Assembly (NCBI GenBank): GCA_947258885.1
Contig: CAMYKD010000045.1
Span: forward strand, 1-46,660
From: an uncultured Kiloniellales bacterium
Lineage (GTDB): Bacteria; Pseudomonadota; Alphaproteobacteria; Kiloniellales; JAKSDN01
Direction of reading: 5' to 3'
DNA length: 46,660 bases
The translations under genes were made by a program, and so were the position numbers. The notes beneath the pieces are model-generated. The model ran no database searches. It was given only the letters and a program-made list of their open reading frames with translations, and was not told where the DNA came from. Below are positions 23,404-40,389 of the stretch, piece after piece. Numbering within the stretch: the stretch's first letter is position 1; each line of letters begins with the position of its first letter.

Positions 23404-23943
23404 CGTGCCTTTCTCCGGGGTCTGGCGAGGCGGGCGGGACGGTCGGGCGCAAAAGGCACGCCGGCGCGGCTCTTGTCAAGGGCGCCCGAGCCTGTGAAAG
23501 GTCCCAAAAACGAGCGCCCCGCGCATGCCGTAGATGCATGGCGGGGCCTCGTTTTCCGGCCTCTCGGGCCGCGCCCGGATGACATTACCGGGCTATCTCT
23601 TTGGTGCCCCGGGCCGCAGCCTCGGGGCGGTCAAATCGTCATATCTCAGGTTTTCGGCGGTCCTCTTCACCACGGCCGCGGTTGCCTTGCTAGGGCCCCC
23701 GATATCAGGTGGTCGGACCGTGGCCCTCCGTCTGAGCGGAGGGCCGGATAAACTGATCCGGTGGGTTCATCCTGTTACGGACCCTCCTTTTGCTGTTGCC
23801 GCTCATCACCGCCATCGCGTGAACCGCGGTCGATCCGCCGCGTGGCGCCGGCGCCACCGTCCCTCGGACGGCGCGCCATTGATGTTGAAAGCATGCGCCC
23901 ACTCGTTCCACCGAGTCAAGAAACAACGCGCGAAATTTGGCCG
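23404..23943. other. 540-base stretch without a recognised gene
   Basis: Open frames exist on both strands but their translations are Arg/Pro-rich or without family resemblance, and none has a good ribosome-binding site. The only structured parts are the hairpins at 23722-23760. The first ~60 bases should carry the aspS promoter and leader. Confidence 0.5.
23722..23760. repeat. two adjacent hairpins
   Basis: GGCCCTCCG (23722-23730) pairs perfectly with CGGAGGGCC (23737-23745) around TCTGAG, and CGGAT (23745-23749) pairs with ATCCG (23756-23760). No T-run follows on either strand. This may be a small palindromic repeat or part of a structured transcript. Confidence 0.4.
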
Positions 23944-24114
23944 CTAACGTCCACGGAACAGCCGGTAGGCCAGGGTCAGAAGCAGCCCCGCCCCCGTGAC
24001 CAGGCCGAACCAGCCGGCCGCCTGCGAGAACGGCGTCTCGGCCAGCAGGATCGCCGCGCCGCCGGCCACCGAGAGCAGACCGAGGACCGCGAAGAAGACG
24101 TTGTCCGAGGACAA
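23944..24114 (-). CDS. small two-helix membrane protein, hypothetical
   Basis: 56 residues from TTG 24114, preceded by GAGATGGGG; no other start codon is available before the upstream in-frame stop. The protein has two membrane segments, VFFAVLGLLSVAGGAAILLA and GWFGLVTGAGLLLTLAYRL, and a basic end FRGR. It follows the larger unknown gene by 43 bases on the same strand. Codon third positions show the normal GC bias of the genome. Family not recognised. Confidence 0.5.
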   Translation of the reverse strand: MSSDNVFFAVLGLLSVAGGAAILLAETPFSQAAGWFGLVTGAGLLLTLAYRLFRGR

Positions 24115-24157
24115 GTGCTACCCCATCTCTTGCCCGCAAGGGCCAACGAGAGCCGGC

Positions 24158-25288
24158 TCATGCCTTGGGTTGCGCGATCCAGTGCTCCCAGATACCGTCC
24201 TTGAGCACGTCGGACCGCAGGAAGCCTTTGAGCCTCCTGTCGAACGGGCCGGAGGAAAGGCACGGCGCTCCACCCTCCTTGCCGACGAACATGGACCTTA
24301 TGCGCGCCGGATCCGACTCGTCGAGAAAATAGTGAGAGAAGCGATCCTGGAACGCGACTGTCAGGATATGCTTGATGTTTCCTCCCGCCGAATGAGACCG
24401 CTTCGCGTCCCACAAGGCGCTCTCACGCGTTTCGGACAGCGCGGCCATTTCGTCCCGGTCCGTCGCGCACCACAGCCGGACGAAGGCCTCGTTCTCCATG
24501 GAGACTGCGCTCGCGAGCACCGACTCGACGAAAGCCTGGAGGCTTTCTCCGTGCGCCACTTTGTTCGGCGTTATCCAGTCCTTCCGATTCGCGAAGAGTT
24601 GGCCGTCGACGTTCAGCGTAATACCGAAGAGGCCCTGCCCAAGCGCAATGGAATGGTCGAAGGGCCGGGATTCATAGTCTTCGCTCCAGCCTTTCCCGAT
24701 CGCCTCCGCGACGTAGTCGAACAGGTCCAGTACCCTGCCTTCGTCGTCAGCCCTCTCGTCCGAGAGCAGGAACCCCTGCGGCGTCTGGCGGAACCCGAAG
24801 CCCGCGACCCGCGAGGTGCTGCTGTCGTATTCGAGATCGACAAGAAGATACTTGGCGCCCTTGTAGAACCATTCGGAGCGGAAGTTGACCACTGCCAGCC
24901 CGCCGATTTCGTCGCGGAACAACCGGGCCGAGTCCGTCACGCCGGCAACATCAGTGCCGGGCACATACGCATGGGCGGCTTGCTCGTAGTTCTGCTTCAG
25001 GACGTTCTCGACATAGCGAATCACGACTTCGTCGGCGGTGACGCTCTCCTTCCTCTTGTTGTCGATCGTGATGTTGGCCAGGAAACCGTCGTAGGAGGTG
25101 CCGGCCCGGACCGAATCGAAGTCCTTCTGGGAAACCTCGACTTCGAAATACCCCGACGTCCGGGCCTCGCCGTAATAGACCGGCCACTTGGTCCGCTGCA
25201 GCGAGACCAGGGCTCCCGCGTAGGAGACGGCCGCAATCCAGGCAAGAACCGCCAAGAGCAGCGCAGGATACAGGCGGCCCATCCGCAC
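24158..25288 (-). CDS. exported protein of unknown family, tandem paralogue 1
   Basis: 376 residues from GTG 25288 (AAGGAG six bases upstream); an ATG two codons later is the alternative. An N-terminal hydrophobic segment (LYPALLLAVLAWIAAVSYAG) is a signal peptide or anchor. It is clearly homologous along its whole length to the product of 25467-26594. Shared blocks: YDGFLAN, EVVIRYVE-VLK, GFGFR-TP-GFLLS-ER, DDEG, DWI-PN, ESDPARIRSMFVGKEG, and a C-terminal LKDG-W--W-AQ. No catalytic motif is recognised. Base composition is lower in G/C than flanking genes. The strongly kept ESDPARIRSMFVGKEG block suggests a functional site. Confidence 0.7.
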   Translation of the reverse strand: MRMGRLYPALLLAVLAWIAAVSYAGALVSLQRTKWPVYYGEARTSGYFEVEVSQKDFDSVRAGTSYDGFLANITIDNKRKESVTADEVVIRYVENVLKQNYEQAAHAYVPGTDVAGVTDSARLFRDEIGGLAVVNFRSEWFYKGAKYLLVDLEYDSSTSRVAGFGFRQTPQGFLLSDERADDEGRVLDLFDYVAEAIGKGWSEDYESRPFDHSIALGQGLFGITLNVDGQLFANRKDWITPNKVAHGESLQAFVESVLASAVSMENEAFVRLWCATDRDEMAALSETRESALWDAKRSHSAGGNIKHILTVAFQDRFSHYFLDESDPARIRSMFVGKEGGAPCLSSGPFDRRLKGFLRSDVLKDGIWEHWIAQPKA

Positions 25289-25346
25289 TCCCCGCTCCTT
25301 CGTATGTAACCTCTCCGGACCGTGACTCTGATTGCAACCGGGCGGT

Positions 25347-25352
25347 AGTATA
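25347..25352 (-). promoter_or_regulatory. -10 box TATACT upstream of tandem paralogue 1
   Basis: TATACT on the minus strand, about 59 bases upstream of the start codon in an A/T-rich 178-base intergenic region. No good -35 box at 16-18 bases. The other paralogue also has TATACT upstream, at 26668-26673. Confidence 0.35.
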
Positions 25353-25466
25353 AGAACACAAACATCACGTTGTACGTATGCGAAGTTAACAAATTCATAA
25401 GATTGGAACCGCTACAAACCGGCCGCCGGCCGGGCCGCTCGCGGCCGAGGCCCACGGCCGGTCGCG

Positions 25467-26594
25467 TCACGATCCGCGCTGTGCGACCCAGAGGGCCCAA
25501 ACGCCGTCCTTGACGACCTCGGATTGCAGCAAGCGGCGAAGTCTCCGATCGCCGGGGCCCTGTGAAAGGCAGAAGCTGTCGCCCTCCTTGCCAACGAACA
25601 TCGACCGTATTCGAGCCGGATCGGACTCCTCGACGAAGTAATGCATGAAATCGTCCCCGAAGGCCATGGTCAGGACGTGCTTGATCCTGCCGAGCGAGGC
25701 GTGCCTTTGTTTCGCCTGCGCCTGTGCATCGTGATCCTGTCCGGCCCCATCGGCCAGCCTGACGAAGTTCTTCGAGCACGACAGCCGGACGGCTGCCGCG
25801 TCCTCCGGCGACGCGGTCTTGGCCAGCGCCTTCTCAACGACCGCCCAGGGAGCGTCGACCTGCGCGCCCTGGTTCGGCGATATCCAGTCCCCCTGCTGGT
25901 CGTGAAGCCGACCGTCGACCTTCAGCGCGGTGCCGAACACGCCCTCGCCGAGCGGAATGGAAAGTTCATCGGGATGGGACGTGTGGTTGTCCAGCCAACC
26001 GTGCCTGAGCCCGTCCGCGACGTAGTCGAGAGCGTCCAGGACGATGCCTTCGTCGTCTGATCTCTCGTGCGAGAGCAGGAATCCCCGCGGCGTGTGGCGA
26101 AAGCCGAAGCCGAAGAAGCGCGAGGCGCCGCCGTCGAACCTGAACTCCGCGATCACGAATCTAGTGCCCAAATAGATCCATTCAGAGAGAAACCCGATCT
26201 CCGTCAGTCCAGCGATTTCCTTGCGGAAGTTGCGGGTCTCGGCGATCGCTTCTGCGCTGTCCGCGCCCGGAGCATAGAGTCGGAGCACTTGATCGTAGTC
26301 TTCCTTCAACACGTGCTCGACATACCGAATCACCACTTCCTGTACCGTGACGCTGTCTTTGCCAAATCCCTCGTCAAAGGCGACGTTGGCCAGAAACCCG
26401 TCGTAACGGACGAGCGCTTGGGTCGAGCCGGTCGGCTTCTCGGCTATCTCGATTTCGAGATGCTCTCCTGTGCTCCCCCCATGATAGTAGAGGGGCCATT
26501 GCACCCGGTTCAGCGAAACCGCGTGCATCGCTTGTGCAGCGGAGACGCTCAAGGCAAACGCTACGATCGCCAGAAAATAGTGGTGACAACGCAT
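25467..26594 (-). CDS. exported protein of unknown family, tandem paralogue 2
   Basis: 375 residues. ATG 26594 with GAGGGT eight bases upstream is preferred to the GTG at 26618, because it gives a clean signal peptide (YFLAIVAFALSVSAAQA, cut before MHAV). It is the paralogue of the downstream gene, collinear with it in all blocks: RYDGFLANV, VQEVVIRYVEHVLK, GFGFRHTPRGFLLSHER, DDEG, DWISPN, ESDPARIRSMFVGKEG, VVKDGVWALWVAQ. The two are separated by 178 bases with their own -10-like boxes, so they may be expressed separately. No recognised domain. Envelope or periplasmic location is likely; a role cannot be assigned. Confidence 0.7.
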   Translation of the reverse strand: MRCHHYFLAIVAFALSVSAAQAMHAVSLNRVQWPLYYHGGSTGEHLEIEIAEKPTGSTQALVRYDGFLANVAFDEGFGKDSVTVQEVVIRYVEHVLKEDYDQVLRLYAPGADSAEAIAETRNFRKEIAGLTEIGFLSEWIYLGTRFVIAEFRFDGGASRFFGFGFRHTPRGFLLSHERSDDEGIVLDALDYVADGLRHGWLDNHTSHPDELSIPLGEGVFGTALKVDGRLHDQQGDWISPNQGAQVDAPWAVVEKALAKTASPEDAAAVRLSCSKNFVRLADGAGQDHDAQAQAKQRHASLGRIKHVLTMAFGDDFMHYFVEESDPARIRSMFVGKEGDSFCLSQGPGDRRLRRLLQSEVVKDGVWALWVAQRGS

Positions 26595-26819
26595 TGATGT
26601 ACCCTCGCCTACTTTCACCTATTGATGGTAATATTTCAAGACATCCTCTCTATAGTATGCTATATCCAGTATATAATTACTTAAAATTGTGATTTATTAG
26701 TGCCATAGGCTCGATGCCAGCCATCGTCGGCCCTTTTCAAACTCGACCGTGGCGGGCGTGGTCGGACTGCTTTGACACCAAACGGCCGCACGGCGCCGCA
26801 CGGCGACCGTTTGCCGCGC
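26595..26819. promoter_or_regulatory. A/T-rich divergent intergenic region with inverted repeat
   Basis: This region separates the paralogue 2 gene (minus) and rnd (plus). It is among the most A/T-rich parts of the window. It contains a minus-strand TATACT box (26668-26673) and the inverted repeat TATAG-TATG-CTATA (26651-26664), a possible operator. No gene is seen in it. Confidence 0.4.
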
Positions 26820-26848
26820 TTTCACCAACCGGCTTTTGCCTGTATACC
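26820..26848 (+). promoter_or_regulatory. candidate promoter of rnd, TTTCAC-N17-TATACC
   Basis: -35 TTTCAC (26820-26825) and -10 TATACC (26843-26848) with a 17-base spacer. Transcription would begin at about 26855, two bases before the ATG, and no Shine-Dalgarno sequence is seen, which predicts a leaderless mRNA. Confidence 0.45.
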
Positions 26849-26856
26849 GCTGGGCC

Positions 26857-30966: not shown

Positions 30967-31710
30967 ATGGAAGGCTCGCCGCACATCCTTATCGTCGACG
31001 ACGACCGCGAGATCCGCGACCTCCTGGCCCGGTTCCTGGACAAGCACGGGCTGCGCGTCGCCACGGCAGCAGACGGACGGGAAATGCAGCAGGTGCTGGA
31101 CGGCAGCCGGATCGACCTGATCGTGCTCGACCTGATGCTGCCCGGCGAGGACGGGCTGACCCTGTGCCGCAATCTGCGGGCCAAATCGCGCATCCCCGTC
31201 ATCATGCTGACGGCCATGGGCGAGGAGACCGACCGCATCGTCGGCCTGGAGATGGGCGCCGACGACTACCTGGCCAAGCCGTTCAACCCGCGCGAGCTTC
31301 TGGCGCGCATCAAGGCGGTTCTGCGCCGGGCCGGAGAGGCCCCCGCGGCGGCACCTGTCGAAGGCGGCGCCGTGCTGGAGTTCGCCGGCTGGACCCTCGA
31401 CCCGGAGCGCCGCGAGCTACAGCGGCCCGACGGCATCATGGTGCCGCTCAGCAGCGGCGAATACGAGCTCCTGGCGGTTTTCGCCACGCACCCCGGCCGC
31501 GTGCTCAGCCGCGACCAGCTCCTGGACCTGGCGCGCGGCCGGGAGGCGCAGCCCTTCGACCGCAGCATCGACGTGCAGGTCAGCCGCCTGCGCCGCAAGA
31601 TCGAGGCCGAGCCCCAGGACCCCGCGCTGATCAAGACCGTGCGGAACGGCGGCTACACCTTCACGCCGAGCGTCCGGCGCCGGCAGAGGTCGGAACGGGG
31701 CCAGGCATGA
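30967..31710 (+). CDS. OmpR-family response regulator
   Basis: 247 residues from ATG 30967; the upstream part of the frame would contain the promoter. REC domain residues 1-125: acidic DDD near residue 12, phospho-acceptor Asp in VLDLMLPGEDG (~51), Thr in MLTAMGEE and Lys in LAKPFNPRE. C-terminal winged helix residues ~140-240 with FDRSIDVQVSRLRRKIE and TVRNGGYTF. The gene overlaps the kinase gene by four bases (ATGA), so the two form a two-component pair. Likely targets are the divergent Met/His/Gly-rich gene and its own promoter, inferred from position. Confidence 0.92.
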   Translation: MEGSPHILIVDDDREIRDLLARFLDKHGLRVATAADGREMQQVLDGSRIDLIVLDLMLPGEDGLTLCRNLRAKSRIPVIMLTAMGEETDRIVGLEMGADDYLAKPFNPRELLARIKAVLRRAGEAPAAAPVEGGAVLEFAGWTLDPERRELQRPDGIMVPLSSGEYELLAVFATHPGRVLSRDQLLDLARGREAQPFDRSIDVQVSRLRRKIEAEPQDPALIKTVRNGGYTFTPSVRRRQRSERGQA

Positions 31711-33158
31711 GGATCTCCCCGAAAAGCCTGGCCGGCCGGACCCTGTTGGTGCTCCTGGTCGGCTTGACCCTATCCAACCTGATCGGCCTGGCGATCTATT
31801 CCGGGGAACGCCACCTGGCCTTGACGACGCAGAGCGGCCGCAACGTCGCCGAGCGCATCGCCACGGTCTTCACAACCTTCGAGGAGGCTGAACCGCCTGC
31901 CCGCCGGACCCTGGCGCGCTCGATGTGGGCGCCCGGGTTCAGCGTCCTTTGGGCAGAGCAGAGCGCGATCCCGACCGAGGACCGGACCTGGCGCGCCGGC
32001 CTGATACGCGCCGCGATCAGCGGCGCCATCGGCGACTTCCCCACGGACCGGATCCGCGTCGTCCAGCGGGAAACCGGGGGCCTGGGCCCGCCACAGGTCC
32101 GGGCCGGTAGACGCCGCGGCTCCTGGATGGCCGGCGAGATGCACATGCGCCACATGCGGGACAGGGGCATGGCCGGGCCGATGACCGGGCCGATGGAGCA
32201 CATGATGCGGGCCTGGCAGGCCGGGCAGGTTCTCGAAGCCTCGCTGCAGCTGACCGACGGCAGCTGGCTCAACTTCGCGCTCCTGACGGCCCGCCCGGAG
32301 CCCCTGTGGTCGTTCCGCCTCCTGCTGTCCATTCTGGTCATGACGGTGGGCGTGATCGCGCTTTCCATCTGGGCGGTGCGCCGCGCGACCAAACCGCTGG
32401 CCGCGTTCTCGCAGGCCGCCGAGCGGCTGGGCCGGGACGTGAACGCGCCGCCGGTCACGGAAGCGGGTCCCAGCGAGGTCAGCCAGCTGGCACGTGCCTT
32501 CAACGAGATGCAGCGCCGCCTCGGGTCCTTCATCCGCGACCGGACTCAGATGCTGGCGGCCATCTCGCACGACCTGCGCACGCCGATCACCCGGCTGCGC
32601 CTGCGCTCGGACTTCGTGGAGGACGAGGAGCAGCGGCAGAAGATGCTGGCCGACCTGGAGCAGATGGAAACGATGATCGCTACCACCCTGGCCTTCGCCC
32701 GCGAGGAGGCCGACGAGGAGCCGCGCAGGCCCTTCGACCTCGCGGTCCTGCTTCACGACCTCTGCGACGCGGCCTCGGACAGCGGCCACGCCGTCGCCTA
32801 TCGCGGCGCGGCGGCCGCGACCTACACGGGCCGGCCGGTGGCCCTGAAGCGGGTGTTCGCCAACCTGGTCGACAACGCGGTCAACTACGGCGGCGGCGGC
32901 GAGGTATCGCTGGCAAGCGCAGCAGACCGGGTGACCGTTACGGTCGAGGACAACGGGCCGGGCATCCCAGAAGACCAGATGGACAAGGTGTTCCAGCCGT
33001 TCTATAGGCTCGAGGGCTCGCGCAGCCGCGACACCGGCGGCGTTGGCCTCGGCCTGGCCTCCGTGCGTTCCATCGTCCGCGCCCACGGCGGCGAGGTGTT
33101 GTTGGCCAACCGGAAAGAGGGCGGGCTGCGCGTCACCGTCGACCTGCCCTACGGCTGA
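31707..33158 (+). CDS. sensor histidine kinase with Met/His-rich periplasmic segment
   Basis: 483 residues. First membrane helix ~11-31, periplasmic domain ~32-200, second helix ~203-223, HAMP (~224-276), HisKA with AAISHDLRTPITRLRLR (phospho-acceptor His ~292) and HATPase_c with N-box LVDNAVNYGG, DNGPGIP and GVGLGLASV. Residues 141-167 of the periplasmic domain hold nine Met and three His (GEMHMRHMRDRG, MAGPMTGPMEHMM), a composition suited to sense Cu(I)/Ag(I) or similar soft metals. Its partner regulator overlaps it. The nearest divergent gene encodes a Met/His/Gly-rich exported protein. The metal-sensing role is inferred. Confidence 0.9.
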   Translation: MRISPKSLAGRTLLVLLVGLTLSNLIGLAIYSGERHLALTTQSGRNVAERIATVFTTFEEAEPPARRTLARSMWAPGFSVLWAEQSAIPTEDRTWRAGLIRAAISGAIGDFPTDRIRVVQRETGGLGPPQVRAGRRRGSWMAGEMHMRHMRDRGMAGPMTGPMEHMMRAWQAGQVLEASLQLTDGSWLNFALLTARPEPLWSFRLLLSILVMTVGVIALSIWAVRRATKPLAAFSQAAERLGRDVNAPPVTEAGPSEVSQLARAFNEMQRRLGSFIRDRTQMLAAISHDLRTPITRLRLRSDFVEDEEQRQKMLADLEQMETMIATTLAFAREEADEEPRRPFDLAVLLHDLCDAASDSGHAVAYRGAAAATYTGRPVALKRVFANLVDNAVNYGGGGEVSLASAADRVTVTVEDNGPGIPEDQMDKVFQPFYRLEGSRSRDTGGVGLGLASVRSIVRAHGGEVLLANRKEGGLRVTVDLPYG

Positions 33159-40115: not shown

Positions 40116-40387
40116 CCTAATACCAAAGGTCATAGATAATGACGCATTTCACCGAGGCGATTTTGACCGCCAGCAAGGCGCGCGCTGCGCCGTTGTGCTG
40201 GTACAACAAGCAGTGCGCAACGCGGCTGGCGGTCAAAAGCGCCCGGCCCTGCGGGTGGGGCGTATCGGGGCGCCGGGTGCGTTGCGGCGCTTGCCCGATG
40301 CGCGCATCGCGCTGCGCACCGCGCCTACCCGGGCGACCCGATCCGCTCCCATGAAATGAGTCATTATCTATGACCTTTGGTATAAGG
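40116..40387. mobile_element. 272-bp MITE-like element with 36-bp terminal inverted repeats
   Basis: The ends 40116-40151 and 40352-40387 are inverted repeats that match at 34 of 36 positions. The inner 23 bases from 40120 (beginning ATACCAAAGGTCATAGAT) match perfectly. Inside, TTTTGACCGCCAGC (40161-40174) and GCTGGCGGTCAAAA (40225-40238) form a second perfect inverted repeat that encloses a further hairpin. No coding frame of note. It fills the space between the pgsA-like start codon and the stop codon of the DUF2066 gene almost exactly. Clear target-site duplications were not found. Interpreted as a non-autonomous element; a structured regulatory RNA is the alternative. Confidence 0.75.
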
Positions 40388-40389
40388 TA

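Follow-up and report, generated by a model that had tools for sequence, protein, structure and literature searches.

A genus-restricted pair of apparently exported paralogues in a mosaic-looking cassette between aspS and rnd of a Kiloniellales bacterium

What are the two long proteins encoded between aspS and rnd in an uncultured Kiloniellales bacterium, and how did their genes come to lie there? The window analyzed here, a stretch of 46,660 nucleotides (contig CAMYKD010000045.1 of assembly GCA_947258885.1), carries at this site the genes for proteins A and B (Table 1). A sequence-only reading of the window had described them as tandem paralogues of an unrecognized secreted family, acquired and then duplicated in place.

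Table 1. Features of the aspS-rnd site, in coordinates of the window
Feature	Position	Strand	Remarks
Whole aspS-rnd spacer	23404..26856		3453 bp in the window; 156-211 bp in three sister genera
Small hydrophobic two-helix ORF	23947..24126	(-)	Directly downstream of A; genus-specific
Protein A	24158..25288	(-)	376 aa from GTG 25288; 374 aa from ATG 25282
Region coding A residues ~82-182	24743..25045	(-)	Candidate NTF2-like domain; low-confidence model
Spacer between B and A	25289..25466	(-)	GC 0.58; mostly deleted in G004
Protein B	25467..26594	(-)	375 aa from ATG 26594
A/T-rich region upstream of B	26595..26760	(-)	GC 0.43; presumed B promoter; lacks a sigma-70 consensus

Two diverged paralogues

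Both ORFs are at the positions given in the earlier reading. Proteins A and B are homologous along their full length, as had been read from the sequence, sharing 49% identity over 366 aligned residues (E 3e-123). Smith-Waterman alignment of the two scores 895, whereas none of 500 shuffles exceeds 63. An ATG lies six bases inside the GTG start of A. Each protein has a single hydrophobic stretch, which is N-terminal and ends in an A-x-A-like site. Judged by eye from these features, both apparently carry Sec-type signal peptides and are exported. The mature chains are acidic, with a mass of ~39 kDa. They have just two cysteines in common, both invariant: Cys274 and Cys343, the only cysteines of A, and Cys273 and Cys342 of mature B. 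The best-conserved part of the pair is the C-terminal block ESDPARIRSMFVGKEG (85% identity over 20 columns), which contains conserved polar residues, and the blocks that had been quoted as near-invariant are identical or nearly so between A and B. An internal repeat of N-terminal half against C-terminal half, first suspected by eye and then checked against shuffled controls, was discarded, its hhalign score of 14.9 falling inside the range of the controls (up to 19.0).

A family confined to one genus

Neither protein has a match in Pfam or NCBIfam, a credible match among PDB sequences, or anything credible in PHROGs or PADLOC, where matches to AbiEii (PADLOC, 0.035) and to PHROG 1984 (0.31) were judged to be noise. 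The halves of each protein, searched separately, gave no Pfam match and nothing exceeding chance. Within Pfam, NCBIfam, PHROGs, PADLOC and PDB sequences, the earlier description of an unrecognized family is thus borne out; the profile search that might have revealed a characterized family gave no clear match. The family is new and undescribed, and is ordinary in kind, consisting of lineage-specific orphan genes.

Members occur in all three species examined from the window's genus, namely that of the window itself (G000) and two others represented by metagenome-assembled genomes (MAGs; G003 and G004). At E <= 0.001, a profile built from A and B found no member in the rest of the taxonomic family (four genomes, three genera), in the 58 other genomes of the order (61 in all), or in the class beyond it (remainder of 385 genomes). 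A profile of five sequences likewise returned nothing credible in the remainder of 398 genomes of the phylum. Altogether, ~800 genomes of the phylum outside the genus yielded no member. Among the weak matches in the phylum (E 0.005-0.5), the three best were antisense to or overlapping ordinary genes, or interrupted by stops, and the underlying genes look like a PspA-type protein, rpsB and acetate kinase. A match in the window's own genome (C9, E 0.17) is antisense to a transporter permease. An exact-peptide scan of 84,980 species genomes, the sole search beyond the phylum and one that detects close relatives only, returned two loci, those of G003 and G004. Searches of plasmids, phages and viral contigs gave no relatives of A or B. 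The survey of taxonomic spread and copy number proposed with the earlier reading therefore places the family in the window's genus only; as far as tested, it is confined to that single genus.

Gain of the cassette between aspS and rnd

Curated models identify both neighbors of the pair above their cut-offs: aspS with 785 bits (NF001750) and rnd with 397 bits (TIGR01388). In three sister genera these two genes lie next to each other in divergent orientation, separated by only ~184 bp (G006), 156 bp (G005) and 211 bp (G002). The empty site in these genera indicates that the cassette was gained on the branch leading to the window's genus, loss in all three sister genera being less economical than a single gain. 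The genes also stand apart in third-position GC content, with a GC3 of 0.77-0.83 for A and B compared to 0.98 for aspS and 0.94 for rnd. Acquisition at this site, as first proposed, is upheld by the empty spacer together with this lower GC3, and the empty site in close relatives combined with the restricted distribution characterizes a lineage-restricted acquired cassette.

Two other claims are weaker than first stated. The A/T-rich patch that had been described is strong only upstream of B and mild across the genes themselves: their GC content of 0.62 compares with 0.68 for the window on average and falls at roughly the 11th percentile for windows of this size. Separate promoter-like boxes had also been reported, a claim not supported by a sigma-70 scan, which returned 0 promoter sites where 0.7 would be expected by chance. 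The small ORF downstream of A has TAG as its third codon in the window and TGG in G003 and G004, so that in the window, if translated, it would start at a downstream TTG.

The locus resembles the lineage-restricted ORFan cassettes found between housekeeping genes in its lower GC and GC3, its genus-only distribution, the empty site in sister genera, its gains and losses and its mosaic alleles. It differs from them in encoding two full-length, anciently diverged exported copies of 375 residues instead of short ORFs. With its empty site, lower GC3, old paralogues and mosaic alleles, it is a compact and clear-cut example of orphan-gene gain.

Duplication, copy number and selection

The age of the duplication leaves the earlier proposal that the genes were acquired and then duplicated in place without support. 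Between A and B, dS is 0.92-1.03 (Nei-Gojobori), whereas rnd has a dS of ~0.10 between G000 and the other two species. The duplication therefore long precedes the species, and may have happened before the genes reached the site.

Copy number varies within the genus. G000 encodes both A and B. G003 retains only A at the site; the stretch corresponding to 25410-26784 is absent and is replaced by a 77-bp piece. A 255-bp remnant of a B-like 3' end (84% DNA identity) is found on another contig of G003, adjoining genes for a histidine kinase and a transporter (substrate-binding protein). The remnant lies within a stretch of that contig (L011 1609-2956, C439) that has no clear counterpart in the other genomes. 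In G004, B is intact and a 169-bp deletion has removed the spacer along with the first 12 codons of A. The TGA stop of B there shares bases with a GTG that is in the reading frame of A (GTGA). Read from this arrangement, A of G004 would receive a new, arginine-bearing N-terminus ahead of its unchanged hydrophobic segment, and may still be made, coupled to B.

For A, dN/dS is 0.18-0.30, and for B it is ~0.43, calculated from few changes; rnd gives ~0.03-0.23, varying by pair and method. A is under purifying selection, yet it is evolving faster than the adjoining housekeeping gene.

Mosaic alleles

The main new result is that the cassette looks mosaic. The flanks around aspS and rnd are 96-100% identical between G003 and G004 (250-bp windows), with G000 as the outlier. 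Within the cassette the relationships change. The A alleles of G003 and G004 are 85-94% alike, and their dS is 0.23 in A versus 0.013 in rnd. G004 is instead 96-99% identical to G000 across B and the 5' half of A, a half in which G003 is 84-94% identical to both. Over the 3' half of A, by contrast, G003 is 94-95% and G004 only 90-91% identical to G000. Such a pattern is the trace expected of allele exchange within the genus, part of which strain mixing could mimic in the assembly of MAGs such as G003 and G004; the contigs of both run uninterrupted from aspS to rnd. Homologous recombination appears to have swapped the cassette among the species of this genus.

Elsewhere in the window, the stretch 31689-32438, which contains a sensor-kinase gene beside an OmpR-type regulator, shows only 68-82% identity to both other species in surroundings of 90-97%, and is a second candidate for allele exchange.

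Candidate fold and possible roles

Structure prediction offers a lead on the fold. Two AlphaFold runs, with two and five sequences, gave pLDDT values of 35 and 32, and at this low confidence both models place two helices followed by four strands at residues ~85-176. Foldseek matches to natural structures were mostly NTF2-like or cystatin-like, including 3k7c, 3kzt, 4q53 and 3ecf, with a best E of 3e-3; for these low-pLDDT models no match reached E 0.001. VIA-align matches span residues 80-189 with Z up to 4.8; values under 5 are often reached by unrelated proteins too. Accordingly, an NTF2-like domain near residues 82-182 is a lead that could fall either way.

The nearest comparison is with extracellular NTF2-like domains (DUF4878/3K7C, DUF3828/3KZT and DUF4783), which are likewise exported or lipid-anchored. 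The order of helices and strands predicted for A and B is like theirs, and their structures are among the best natural Foldseek matches. A and B differ in lacking sequence or profile similarity to them, and the comparison leaves the N-terminal segment and the long C-terminal part unaccounted for. DUF3828 and DUF4878 (Pfam PF12883 and PF12870) gave no gathering-score match to the full proteins or their halves, and neither matches the window's genome; a DUF3828 profile aligned to A/B with hhalign scored 9.3, where shuffled columns reach 17.8. An analysis covering three such extracellular DUFs, with 3k7c and 3kzt as two of its structures, proposed that they bind ligands non-catalytically (PMC3924330).

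The reading preferred here combines a diverged, exported, genus-only family, an apparently recombining cassette and an NTF2-like binding role in the periplasm; taken as a whole it is tentative, falling somewhat short of an even chance. A and B would be exported by Sec to the periplasm and fold there as soluble, acidic proteins of ~39 kDa, with one disulfide predicted between the shared cysteines. Each would comprise an NTF2-like alpha+beta cone at ~82-182 as well as a distinct C-terminal part that is better conserved and contains ESDPARIRSMFVGKEG. A small molecule or partner protein might be bound through the NTF2-like pocket, with no catalysis involved. Allele exchange and copy loss suggest that the role is accessory, and niche- or conflict-related as opposed to core. 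The analysis turned up no partner gene, ligand or regulator for the pair; in its immediate neighborhood are aspS and rnd, together with a radical SAM gene and the gene of an OmpR-type regulator.

Conservation of the C-terminal block could also be read as the mark of an active site, making A and B secreted enzymes of an undescribed family. The level of conservation and the polar residues within the block agree with this, but no enzyme family is matched and the conservation of two paralogues cannot separate structural from catalytic constraint, which leaves an enzyme unlikely.

Somewhat less probable still is that A and B are orphan immunity or inhibitor proteins directed against a periplasmic toxin or hydrolase delivered by rivals, with the swapped alleles tracking changing toxins. 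Orphan immunity genes occur without a neighboring effector or secretion-system gene. Diverged tandem paralogues, a predicted periplasmic location, mosaic alleles and copy loss would all suit such a function, and periplasmic immunity proteins such as Tai3 resemble the pair in its predicted location, tandem paralogy and allele exchange. Polymorphic toxin systems, moreover, use NTF2-like domains as immunity proteins (PMC3924330). Among the VIA-align rows for A and B are Tai3, an immunity protein, and the inhibitor IseA (Z 4.1-4.8), but at noise level. Against this function, no toxin, secretion or further immunity genes adjoin the pair, PADLOC gave nothing credible, A is conserved (dN/dS ~0.2-0.3) and not diversifying, and A and B are ~3x longer than Tai3-like proteins and show no sequence match to them.

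Equally improbable is that the genes are nearly neutral, decaying leftover cargo with no important role: the loss of B from the site in G003 with its remnant elsewhere, the deleted 5' end of A in G004 and the higher dN/dS of B fit decay, but no species is without an intact copy, purifying selection on A extends across dS values up to 0.33, and five long copies are free of internal stops and frameshifts.

A bolder reading, in which the undescribed exported family possibly has a new C-terminal fold and forms a recombining immunity or binding module of one genus, is improbable as a whole. Should an immunity or binding role prove true, a new exported family would be added; otherwise A and B are one among many lineage-specific secreted ORFan families.

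Repeats in the window's genus

A MITE-like element of ~265 bp lies in the window at 40119-40389, with inverted ends (ACCAAAGGTCATAGATAATGA... and ...TCATTATCTATGACCTTTGGT) and TA adjoining on both sides. A 90% identical copy occurs in G004 between rnd and the radical SAM gene (L013 5037-5315), an interval in which the window has no such element. A short repeat in G003 (L011 4680-4891, C439) recurs in all three genomes, across dozens of contigs, and is apparently a dispersed repeat family of the window's genus.
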